Made by a program: the position numbers and the translations under genes. A DNA stretch of 38,558 nucleotides from Subtercola sp. Z020 (GTDB taxonomy: Bacteria; Actinomycetota; Actinomycetes; Actinomycetales; Microbacteriaceae). Location of the stretch: positions 1 through 38,558 of the forward strand of contig NZ_PSTT01000069.1 in the NCBI RefSeq assembly GCF_002931235.1, read 5' to 3'. Numbering within the stretch: position 1 is the first letter of the stretch; each line of letters starts with the position of its first letter. The notes under the pieces are model-generated. The model was not told where the DNA came from. It saw only the letters and a program-made list of their open reading frames with translations, and ran no database searches. Positions 8,344-18,440 of this stretch are shown piece after piece.

Positions 8344-8586
8344 CTAGTGCGTGCTCTGGATCTGGCGGATGCTGAAGAGCACCTGGTCGCGCAGCTGCTC
8401 GGGCGCGACCTCCTTGCAGGCGCGCTGCACGGCCTCCGTCAGCACGACGCCGATGTGCAGCTCCGACGAGCAGTCGCTGCAGTTCGCGATGTGCTCGCGG
8501 ATGTCGGCGGCGTCGTGGCTCTCGAGTTCGTTGTGCAGGAACTCCTCGAGCTCTGCCTTCGCTTTGGTGCAGCCGCAGTCAGTCAT
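8344..8586 (-). CDS. rsrA: Mycothiol-system anti-sigma factor RsrA (zinc-binding anti-sigma)
   Basis: An 80-residue protein with the ZAS signature His32-x3-Cys36-x2-Cys39 plus Cys4 and Cys6 near the N terminus and Cys57. In the Streptomyces homologue, oxidation of such cysteines forms a disulfide, releases zinc and frees SigR. Its ATG overlaps the sigR stop codon (ATGA), so the two are translated together and in balance. The stop is followed by a hairpin. Identification rests on the ZAS motif, the size and its place directly after a SigR-type sigma factor. The Cys-x-Cys at positions 4 and 6 is a compact variant of the N-terminal cysteine site. Confidence 0.92.
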
Positions 8587-9260
8587 TTCGTGCGTCCCTT
8601 CGGTGCGTCTGTGGCGGCGACCGGGATGCCCCGGCCCTCCGCGTATTCGGTCAGCAGACCGCGGAGGAGTCGTCGGCCACGGTGCAGGCGACTCATCACG
8701 GTTCCGACCGGGGTCTTCATGATGTCGGCGATCTCCTGGTAGGAGAAACCCTCGACGTCGGCCAGGTAGACGGCCAGACGGAAGTCTTCGGGAATGCTCT
8801 GCAGGGCATCCTTCACCGCGCTGTCGGGCAGGTGGTCGATCGCCTCGGCCTCGGCCGAGCGGGATGAGGTGCCCGTCGCTGTGGCCGACTCGGCGTTGCC
8901 CAGCTGCCAGTCCTCGAGGTCGCTCGTGGTGCCTTGGTAGGGGTCGCGCTGCTTCTTGCGGTACACGTTGATGAACGTGTTGGTGAGGATGCGGTAGAGC
9001 CACGCCTTCAGGTTCGTGCCCTGCTCGAACTGCGCGAAGGCGGCATACGCCTTCACGAACGTCTCCTGCACCAGGTCTTGGGCGTCGGCCGGGTTACGGG
9101 TCATGCGGAGCGCTGCACCGTACAGCTGGTCGAGGAACGGGATCGCCTGTTCCTCGAAGAGCGCGCGCGGGTCGGTGTTCCCTCGGTGGTCAGTAACAGA
9201 TGTCATCACCGGCAAGTCTACGATGCGGGGCCGTTCGATCAGTGTTGCTGCACTTCCCAT
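8583..9260 (-). CDS. sigR: ECF sigma factor SigR/SigH (thiol-oxidative stress)
   Basis: 225 residues. Region 2 spans about 40-105 ([44 protein letters not shown]) and region 4 about 150-205 ([33 protein letters not shown]). In actinobacteria this sigma factor directs thioredoxin, mycothiol and proteolysis genes after disulfide stress and is held by RsrA. The ATG at 9260 has a strong GGAGG eight bases upstream. A second in-frame ATG at 9206 (residue 19) is preceded by TAGACT eight bases away and could start a shorter isoform. Upstream lies GGAAT-N18-GTT, the SigR recognition pattern, so the gene is probably autoregulated. It is divergent from aroA. Confidence 0.95.
9215..9220 (-). promoter_or_regulatory. 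Internal -10 box before the second sigR ATG
   Basis: TAGACT on the minus strand, eight bases before the in-frame ATG at 9206 (residue 19 of SigR). It is spelled by the codons GTA GAC TTG; GTA and TTG are uncommon choices in this GC-rich sequence. It fits a constitutive leaderless transcript for a short SigR. Confidence 0.45.
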
Positions 9261-9305
9261 CACACGGCCTCCTTCTCGAATGTGTTCAATCGCCGATACT
9301 CTGGA

Positions 9306-9332
9306 CAACTGATGCTGATCTCGAGATATTCC
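9306..9332 (-). promoter_or_regulatory. SigR-type autoregulatory promoter of sigR-rsrA
   Basis: On the minus strand GGAAT (9332-9328) is followed after exactly 18 bases by GTTG (9309-9306). This matches the published actinobacterial SigR/SigH consensus GGAAT-N18-GTT. It is placed to start transcription near 9299, about 25 bases before the GGAGG ribosome site. The element overlaps the first codons of aroA on the other strand. Confidence 0.8.
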
Positions 9333-10733
9333 GCCCCCGACTTCAACCCGTACGGCGATTCCGCCCCCGTCGAACCGAACCGCGACTGGGCTGCTCCCCG
9401 GGCCCGCGGCCCGCTGGCCGCCACCGTGTCGCTCCCGGGTTCGAAGAGCCTCACGAACCGCGAGCTCGTTCTGGCAGCCCTCGCCGACGGCCCCTCGCGC
9501 CTCAGCGCCCCCCTGCATTCCCGCGACACCACGCTGATGGCCGACGCACTGCGCTCGTTCGGCGTCACCATCGACGAGGTCGAGGCCCCCGCGGCATCCC
9601 GTGCCACCGGCTCCGCGGGCCGCTTCGGCGCCGACTGGCTCGTCACCCCCGCACCCGAACTGCTCGGCAGCACCACGGTCGACTGCGGCCTCGCCGGCAC
9701 CGTCATGCGCTTCCTGCCCCCGGTCGCCGCCCTGGCGCTCGGCCCCGTCGTCTTCGACGGTGACGAGGGCGCCCGCCGCCGCCCGATGGCGACCACCATC
9801 TCGTCGCTCGGCGCACTCGGCGTCGACATCAGCGCAGACGGCCGCCAGAACCTCCCCTTCACCGTCTACGGCACGGGCAGCGTCGCGGGCGGCGAGATCA
9901 CGATCGACGCCTCGTCGTCGTCGCAGTTCGTCTCGGGCCTGCTGCTCGCCGCCGCCCGCTTCGAGAACGGCCTGACCCTCCGCCACGAGGGCGAGCGCCT
10001 GCCGAGCCTGCCGCACATCGAGATGACGATCGAGACCCTGGCTGCCCGGGGGGTCACCGTCACGTCGCCCGAACCGGGTGTGTGGGAGGTGTCGCCCGGC
10101 CCGATCCGCGCCCTCGATGTGGCGATCGAGCCCGACCTCTCGAACGCTGCACCGTTCCTCGCCGCCGCCCTCGTCGCGGGCGGCTCCGTCACGTTCGCAG
10201 GCTGGCCCGCCCGCACCACCCAGGTGGGAGCGCACCTGGCCGAGCTGCTGCCGCTGTTCGGCGCCAGCGTCAGCCGGGAGGGCGACCGACTGACCGTGAC
10301 CGGTGGGCCGAGCATCCACGGCGTCGATCTCGACCTGTCGGCGGGCGGCGAACTGGCCCCGGCCATCGTGGCCATCGCGGCTCTCGCCGACTCGCCCAGC
10401 ACCATCACGGGCATCGGGCACATCCGGCACCACGAGACCGACCGCCTCGCAGCCCTCGCGGCCGAGATCAACGGCCTCGGCGGCGCGGTCACCGAACTCG
10501 ACGACGGCCTGCGCATCGAGCCCCGACCGCTCAGCGGCGGCGTCTGGCACACCTACGACGATCACCGCATGGCGCACGCCGGCGCGATCATCGGGCTCGC
10601 CGTCGACAGCGTGGTCGTCGAGAACATCGCCACGACCGCCAAGACGCTGCCCGAGTTCGCCGAGCTGTGGGAGGGCCTGGTGCACGGCGAGCCCGGGCAA
10701 CGCGCGGTCACGAGCGTGGAGCTGCCCGCGTGA
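9312..10733 (+). CDS. aroA: 3-phosphoshikimate 1-carboxyvinyltransferase (EPSP synthase)
   Basis: 473 residues. Joins shikimate-3-phosphate and PEP in the sixth step of the shikimate pathway. Motifs: [19 protein letters not shown] with the substrate-binding Lys/Ser, [23 protein letters not shown], and the C-terminal [18 protein letters not shown]. The start is the ATG at 9312 ([11 protein letters not shown]), with no clear Shine-Dalgarno sequence; a GATACT box at 9295-9300 suggests a very short leader. The first seven codons overlap the opposing sigR promoter. The stop overlaps the rsgA start (GTGA). In mycobacteria too, aroA and rsgA lie near the SigH sigma-factor locus, so this is conserved context. 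Confidence 0.96.
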
Positions 10734-16751: not shown

Positions 16752-18440
16752 TCAGGCGCGCGGCCCGAGCGCGGCGTGCACCGAGCGCACGGCGCTGGCC
16801 CCTTCACCCACCGCCGCAGCCACCCGCTTCATCGAACCGTGGCGCACGTCGCCGGCGGCGAAGACCCCGGGGATGCTCGTCTCGAACGGCAGCGGGGCCC
16901 GGCCGAGCACGGTCCACTCCTCGGGAAGCTCCGCGGCGGGCAGGTCGCTGTCGGTGAGCACGAAGCCGTCGGCGTCGAGCAGCACGCGGTCGGTGAGCAA
17001 TTGGCCCCTGCGGGCGTCGAGCCACTGTGTCGCCGGGTCGGCGCCGATGAAACAGAACAGGCCGCTGCACTCACGCTGTTCGGTCTCGCCGGTCACTGTG
17101 TCGGTGAGCGTGATGCCCGAAAGCGAGGCCTCGCCCGCCAGCGCCGTCACCTGCGACGACGTGCGGATCTCGACGTTGGGGTGGGCACGCAGCCTGTCGA
17201 CGAGGTAGGCCGACATCGTGCTCTCGATGTCGGGCCGCCGAACGACCACGGTCACCCTCGCTCCACGCGAGGCGAGGAACAGGGCCGCCTGGCCCGACGA
17301 GTTCGCGCCGCCGATCACCGTGGTGGCGTTCTGGCCGCAGGCCCGCGCCTCGATCTCGGTGGCCGCGTAGTAGATGCCGGCGCCCTCGAAGTGCGACCAC
17401 CGGGGCAGGGGAAGCGACCGGTACCGGGCACCCGAGGCGATGATGACTGCCCGGGACTGGATGACGGTGCCGTCGTCGAGCTGCACCCGCAGTTGCCCGC
17501 CGAGAGTGTCGACGCCCTGCACCCGGCACGGGCTGTACAGCTTCGCCCCGAACTTCTCGGCCTGCACCATGGCCCGTGCGGTCAGCTCGCCGCCGCTCAG
17601 CCCCGAGGGAAAGCCGAGGTAGTTCTCGATCCGGGAGCTCGACGCCGCCTGTCCGCCGGTGCCCACCGCGTCGAGTAGAACGGTCTCGAGCCCTTCGCTC
17701 GCACCGTACATCGCCGCTGCGAGCCCGGCCGGGCCGGCACCGACCACCGCGAGGTCGACCCTGCCCCCCGGCGTGTTCCGGTACGACAGGCCGAGGTGCT
17801 CGGCCAGTTCGCCGGGTGTGGCGTTCCGCAACACGGCGTCGGGCAGAATGACCGCGGGCAGGTCGCCCGGCTGCAGCCGGGTGACGCCGAGCAGGGCCTG
17901 CCCCGCCACGCTGTCGGAGTCGAACCAGAGGTGCGCCAGCTGCTGCCGGGCCGCGTAGGTGCGAAGGGCGAGCGACTCGGCCGAGAACGCCGGCCCGATG
18001 ATCTCGATGCTGCGCGCGCCGACACCCTCCCGCAGGCTGGCCCGCCGGGCCACGAAGGCCCGCAGCAGAAGATCGCTGAGATCGGGCTCGTCGGCCATCA
18101 GCCGCCGGAACCGGGGCGGCGAGATGTGGTGCAGGATGCCCGGCTGCAGCACGCGCGCCGTGAGGTAGAGCGTCTGCCCGGTCAGCAGGTTGAGCTCACC
18201 GGTGAAGTGGCCCGGGCCGTACAGCCGCACCCGCTCCTCCGTGGAGTCGACCGTGGCGACCTGCACGATCTCCACCTCGCCGCTCTCGATGACGATCAGA
18301 TCGAGGTCGGTGTCGCCGGCGCGGAACAGCACGTCGCCCGCCCCGACCGATCTCCGCTCGCCGTACTGGGCGAGTCGTTTCAGCTGATCGGCACTGAGGG
18401 TCGGCGAGACATCCTGGGGTGACGCGTACGGAGCGGTCAT
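16752..18440 (-). CDS. Cyclic-nucleotide-domain flavoprotein (thioredoxin reductase-like, lacks CxxC)
   Basis: 562 residues in three parts. Residues ~15-140: cyclic-nucleotide-binding domain (GDVLFRAGDTDLDLIVIESGEVEI, FTGELNLLTGQ). Residues ~155-240: a thioredoxin-like fold segment without active-site Cys. Residues ~245-562: FAD/NADPH reductase with VVGAGPAGLAAAMYGASEG, the second nucleotide site VIGGANSSGQAALFLASRG, and GVFAAGDVRHGSMKRVAAAVGEG. At the position of the thioredoxin reductase CATC pair the sequence reads IYYAATEIEARAC, so the dithiol is missing and ordinary disulfide reduction is unlikely. It is separated by 17 bases from a divergent zinc-finger gene. Predicted: an NAD(P)H-dependent flavoenzyme gated by a nucleotide or membrane cue; the substrate is unknown. 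Confidence 0.88.
   Translation of the reverse strand: MTAPYASPQDVSPTLSADQLKRLAQYGERRSVGAGDVLFRAGDTDLDLIVIESGEVEIVQVATVDSTEERVRLYGPGHFTGELNLLTGQTLYLTARVLQPGILHHISPPRFRRLMADEPDLSDLLLRAFVARRASLREGVGARSIEIIGPAFSAESLALRTYAARQQLAHLWFDSDSVAGQALLGVTRLQPGDLPAVILPDAVLRNATPGELAEHLGLSYRNTPGGRVDLAVVGAGPAGLAAAMYGASEGLETVLLDAVGTGGQAASSSRIENYLGFPSGLSGGELTARAMVQAEKFGAKLYSPCRVQGVDTLGGQLRVQLDDGTVIQSRAVIIASGARYRSLPLPRWSHFEGAGIYYAATEIEARACGQNATTVIGGANSSGQAALFLASRGARVTVVVRRPDIESTMSAYLVDRLRAHPNVEIRTSSQVTALAGEASLSGITLTDTVTGETEQRECSGLFCFIGADPATQWLDARRGQLLTDRVLLDADGFVLTDSDLPAAELPEEWTVLGRAPLPFETSIPGVFAAGDVRHGSMKRVAAAVGEGASAVRSVHAALGPRA

Follow-up and report, generated by a model that had tools for sequence, protein, structure and literature searches.

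Does the sigR gene of Subtercola sp. Z020 encode one sigma factor or two? The window, which is the whole stretch of 38,558 nucleotides (38.6 kb) analysed here from a 3.5-Mb genome, carries sigR on its minus strand with two in-frame start codons, each with a promoter-like element upstream. The locus looks like a variant of the known SigR/SigR′ switch with a short form predicted to be leaderless. From the sequence, it is highly probable that two promoter-start units are nested in sigR, P1 for a leaderless short form and P2 for a leadered long form. The features concerned are as follows.

8344..8586, minus strand: rsrA anti-sigma gene (TIGR03988 profile, score below its cut-off), its start overlapping the sigR stop as ATGA
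8583..9206, minus strand: sigR short form, 207 aa, predicted leaderless, with a putative transcript start at about 9206-9208
8583..9260, minus strand, stop included: sigR long form, 225 aa, scoring 301.1 bits against TIGR02947 (SigH_actino, the SigR/SigH ECF sigma family), above the cut-off of 251.55
9207..9260, minus strand: N-terminal extension of 18 codons, from Met1 to the codon before Met19
9215..9220, minus strand: internal -10 box TAGACT of P1, 8 nt 5′ of the in-frame ATG 9206 (Met19)
9268..9274, minus strand: Shine-Dalgarno sequence AAGGAGG of the long form, 7 nt 5′ of ATG 9260
9297..9299, minus strand: putative P2 transcript start, 33-35 nt from the first G of GGAAT
9297..9302, plus strand: predicted aroA -10 box TACTCT, 9 nt 5′ of the aroA ATG
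9306..9332, minus strand: SigR-type promoter P2, GGAAT at 9332-9328, N18 and GTTG at 9309-9306
9312..10733, plus strand: divergent aroA, its start codon within the SigR promoter

The downstream neighbour of sigR scores 58.9 bits against TIGR03988, just below the cut-off of 62.5, with positions 2-76 of 77 aligned. Its ATG overlaps the sigR stop codon (ATGA, window 8583-8586), as in 159/167 loci. The initial annotation had assigned a consensus SigR promoter and a strong Shine-Dalgarno sequence to ATG 9260, the box TAGACT to ATG 9206 and an 18-residue extension to the longer product. All of these read directly from the sequence as it had described them, Met19 lying 18 codons after Met1.

ATG 9206 has the layout of a leaderless gene, with a -10 hexamer just 5′ of it and, by direct reading, no Shine-Dalgarno sequence before it. 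The centre of TAGACT lies 11.5 nt upstream of A9206, and the -10 hexamers of Mycobacterium tuberculosis leaderless genes are reported to lie 7-12 bp from the start site (PMC3898074). The pattern TANNNT occurs at 54 sites on both strands of the window (0.0007 per position). As had been claimed, the leaderless layout is widespread here, TANNNT lying 5-9 nt before the ATG/GTG of ORFs with 80 aa or more in 19 rows; the sigR box accounts for two rows, and one ORF contributes two starts. The commonest gaps are 6 (7 rows) and 7 (4 rows).

In a 406,673-nt sample of the same genome, TANNNT at gap 8 precedes 0/1096 interior in-frame ATGs. Among near-start ATGs it stands at gap 6 or 7 in 18/211 and at gap 8 in none, by a rough start call that missed the gap-8 start at 18440. 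To call gap 8 exclusive to sigR would be too strong, as the window starts 18440 and 33912 also have it and the divergent gene has gaps of 7-9. Leaderless starts in this genome usually have a gap of 6-7 and not 8, so the 5′ end of the short form may carry 1-2 extra nucleotides. Moreover, TAGACT is spelled with GTA and TTG, rightly noted before as unusual codons. GTA makes up 0.8% of 931 Val codons, TTG 1.9% of 1129 Leu codons and CTA 0.4% in the ab initio ORFs of the window, counted with the first 30 codons of each omitted and sigR excluded.

The box is conserved among relatives. The family search gave 236 matches in 249 genomes, and 112 Microbacteriaceae loci from 111 genomes (G240 twice) were used, representing 80 of the 82 genera with a match (g29 and g40 were left out). 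TANNNT stands exactly 8 nt before an in-frame ATG/GTG in 111/112 loci; 110 are TANNNT-N8-ATG, one is TANNNT-N8-GTG and one has gap 7. Gap 8 with ATG is also found in 80/80 loci of the best 80 of 549 matches, a set biased to close relatives (Subtercola is closest, then other Microbacteriaceae) that may share loci with the 112.

Beyond the family, the order and class sets were automatic top loci completed by hand-picked stretches, without families f4, f11, f13, f17, f20, f24, f33 and f42. Within the order, 14 further families contributed 36 loci, 35 with gap 8 and one with gap 7. In other orders, 67 loci representing 32 families were compared: 34 have gap 8 (31 ATG, 3 GTG), one has gap 7, two have a gap-5 GTG and 30 are boxless, including L321 with almost no upstream sequence. 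The gap-8 box is thus missing in 33/67 loci outside the order, and 16/32 of these families have it in at least one locus. By eye, several boxless families look leadered, with TANNNT about 30-45 nt upstream and a stretch rich in G preceding GTG or TTG. These counts are of genera and loci that share ancestry and are not independent events, and many of the relatives' stretches cover only the first part of sigR. In one relative (L161, genus g68) the box is visible only if the scan exceeds 110 codons; a very long acidic repetitive stretch lies there between the predicted leaderless ATG and the sigma core.

The predicted arrangement is hence shared by nearly every family genus sampled and by much of the class. 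The internal box, its spacing and Met19, whose lack of conservation the initial annotation had named as evidence against its proposal, are all kept among relatives. Its two-form reading stands at the sequence level in that two promoters and two in-frame starts are present and conserved. What does not stand is the view of an independent, more compact version of the Streptomyces system, since the layout occurs in 15 sampled families of the order besides those 16 of other orders, with extensions of 9 to 52 codons among relatives (long starts picked by score).

Over the 79 gap-8 genera, the T, A and final T of the box are 100% conserved, position -2 is a pyrimidine in 93% and position -1 is G in 82%, and the maximum identity at any position from -50 to -15 is 59%. 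The pyrimidine-G before the ATG and the gap of 8 may be compatible with a transcript start at G9207 or A9206. No conserved -35 element was found, TTG at spacers of 15-21 upstream of the box occurring in 0/79 genera. As a control, TANNNT was sought in the 60 nt before the rsrA start and occurs there in only 1/167 loci, so that such a promoter close to rsrA is rejected.

P1 may be real and yet not constitutive, being driven by another regulator or sigma factor. There is a precedent in S. coelicolor, where WblC is reported to drive sigRp1 under ribosome-targeting antibiotics (PMC4921905). A WblC/WhiB7-type site is ruled out here because the upstream region has no AT-rich stretch; the five intervals compared between -70 and -15 have an A+T of 0.26-0.38. 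Regulation of P1 in general is, in our view, unlikely. We prefer P1 as a putatively constitutive, housekeeping-type promoter.

The long form has its own support. Its promoter is an exact GGAAT-N18-GTT, and the published SigR consensus is GGAAT-N18-19-GTT (PMC9205884). GGAA[TC]-N18/19-GTT lies upstream of sigR in 64/79 family genera, versus 0.79 expected from shuffles; the other 15 have GGAAT-N17-GTT in 13 and neither in two. The strict SigR promoter is also present in 93 of 103 loci outside the family. In the Subtercola genome, GGAAT-N18-GTTG has 15 copies, the sigR one included, and the reversed control none. Another of the 15, at G000:C101:42661-42687, precedes by about 60 nt the single trxB match that scores above its cut-off; trxB is a reported SigR target in Streptomyces (PMC9205884).

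In 67/79 genera, an ATG/GTG led by a Shine-Dalgarno sequence lies 12 or more codons upstream with an open frame into sigR; the other two frames give 7 and 7. The box itself was omitted from the stop check of this test because its TAG/TAA (73/79 genera) closes one frame. The extensions also share an N-terminal motif, [VLIMTA]L[EDT][RAKP] within residues 3-12, in 35/77 genera, whereas 1000 shuffles gave a mean of 2.94 and at most 11; g27 and g46 had no candidate start. The motif test relies on long starts scored for Shine-Dalgarno sequence and promoter, whereas the frame test does not. The codons of the motif vary synonymously.

In 46/103 loci outside the family, an open start codon in the sigR frame is positioned 34-36 nt from the leading G of GGAAT, versus four out-of-frame matches. 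The long form itself looks leaderless in these 46 loci, and both isoforms may come from leaderless mRNAs there. Starts at this distance are found throughout the sampled loci of families f15 (9/9), f9 (5/5), f51 (4/4) and f32 (3/3), L133, L135 and L267 being among the examples.

The spacing of the internal box bears on the long form as well. In 153/180 gap-8 loci the box starts with TAG or TAA, placed outside the frame in which it would stop sigR. A gap of 8 gives the frame xTA Gxx Txx, and a gap of 6 or 9 would put TAG/TAA in frame and cut the long form. Loss of the long form at those gaps would account for the spacing found, 8 and rarely 7. Gap 8 is retained also in the 27/180 loci where the box is not TAG/TAA and this stop-codon argument does not apply. 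Five lines that are not fully independent thus argue for a real long form, namely P2, the Shine-Dalgarno-led start, the motif, the starts at 34-36 nt and the frame of the box.

These lines weigh on the alternative of a short form alone, in which the P2 mRNA too would be read from the internal ATG and the upstream frame would be an untranslated leader. The internal ATG is near-invariant while the extensions diverge strongly in length and sequence, and 12/79 genera lack a Shine-Dalgarno-led in-frame start at least 12 codons upstream, the criterion used. However, ATG 9206 has no Shine-Dalgarno sequence for such a leadered mRNA, the upstream starts prefer the sigR frame, the N-terminal motif is enriched and the starts at a fixed distance from GGAAT outside the family are mostly in frame. 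We regard a short form alone as improbable and keep the reading with two forms.

That only the long form matters and TAGACT is kept for the peptide VDLPVM is most improbable, since VDLPVM or VDWPVM is common in close relatives but the residues spanning the box differ between genera (VDLPVM, VDSSVM, LESAVM, LSLAAM, LDWPLM), with T, A and T fixed through codons as rare as GTA/CTA and the spacing constant at 8 although the remainder of the extension differs in length. We reject a protein motif as the explanation of the box. As residues and lengths vary while T, A and T are fixed, selection seems to act on the DNA, as for a -10 element, and this selection, not one on the peptide, seems to keep the internal box.

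On the preferred reading of two nested units, SigR seems to be made in two versions, the long one from a promoter that SigR itself activates and the short one from a gene-internal promoter. P1 would be a housekeeping-type promoter with its TAGACT within the coding region, and its transcript would begin at ATG 9206 or 1-2 nt before. The short form would be translated without a ribosome-binding site and kept in reserve by RsrA. Thiol stress would oxidize RsrA and free SigR, which would then transcribe its own gene from P2. The leadered P2 mRNA would be read from ATG 9260 to yield the form with 18 extra residues. By analogy with Streptomyces, where the extended form is reported to have a half-life of about 10 min and the short form to be stable (PMC4921905), these residues probably make the induced form short-lived. 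Because distant relatives retain this layout, it probably contributes to the stress response.

The divergent side of the locus shows a feature of its own. The TACTCT box of aroA (9297-9302, plus strand) overlaps the predicted P2 transcript start. A divergent ORF starting within the strict SigR promoter, with TANNNT at gap 7-9, is found in 83 of the 92 family loci that have this promoter, where it was scored as an open frame, the identification as aroA being by profile in the window only. SigR induction may interfere with aroA transcription.

The closest known system is SigR/SigR′ of Streptomyces coelicolor, in which a SigR-dependent upstream promoter is reported to give the extended form and a downstream promoter the short one (PMC4921905, PMC5472188). 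Two differences stand out. The Streptomyces extension is given as 55 aa (PMC4921905) or 58 aa (PMC5472188) and is 18 aa in the Subtercola window. The Streptomyces short form is described as leadered with the ribosome-binding site AGGAGGTG and a GTC start, whereas the one in the window would use an ATG without a Shine-Dalgarno sequence. The gap-8 box is absent in 3/3 loci of family f37, taken as Streptomyces because L278 has the published mature N terminus TGTDAGTEH.

Other systems share single elements. For Shigella VirF30/VirF21, a gene-internal promoter is reported to yield a leaderless mRNA starting 1-2 nt before an internal ATG and hence a shorter form, but VirF is an unrelated AraC-type regulator and VirF21 represses virF (PMC5101355). 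The M. tuberculosis ECF sigma gene sigE, with P1/P2/P3, likewise has an internal promoter giving shorter forms and one leaderless transcript, although the roles are reversed, stress induction through SigH acting there on the internal promoter (PMC10027907). The SigR orthologue gene sigH of M. tuberculosis is described with a downstream promoter and an upstream SigH-recognised one (p1/p2), while the accessible text of that source mentions neither isoforms nor a leaderless short form (PMC4921905). The orthologous sigH-rshA operon of Corynebacterium glutamicum has SigA-type TANANT promoters upstream but differs in having four housekeeping promoters and a SigH-dependent one that drives rshA only (PMC3489674).

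A leaderless SigR short form is not described in the accessible text of the open-licence literature searched. A 2009 study on the unstable isoform 'in actinomycetes' is said to have included a mycobacterium, so that isoforms outside Streptomyces may already be in print.

How efficiently would the short form be initiated? In mycobacteria, leaderless initiation is reported to need an RTG at the very 5′ end, an RTG a few nucleotides inside being probably weaker, and in E. coli initiation factor 3 inhibits leaderless initiation (PMC4633059). In Streptomyces, the same factor is reported to repress the GTC start (PMC5472188). A joint reading is possible, although doubtful as a whole. Nested SigR starts would be ancestral to much of the class and both leaderless in some families. 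The short form would be initiated weakly, at an AUG set back 1-2 nt from the 5′ end and discriminated against by initiation factor 3, as an equivalent of the Streptomyces GTC that holds SigR below RsrA. The A-V-L-E-R-P-like motif would be a degradation signal.

Annotation with a single start per gene misses nested leaderless isoforms of this kind. The spacing that places the box out of the stop frame offers a simple genomic signature for others. The locus also makes two questions accessible: does the extension shorten the life of the protein in organisms other than Streptomyces, and is inefficient initiation of the short form a common means of holding SigR below RsrA? If the two nested units are true, the SigR/SigR′ switch extends from Streptomyces to much of the class, and its short form would often come from a leaderless mRNA whose promoter lies within the gene's own coding sequence.
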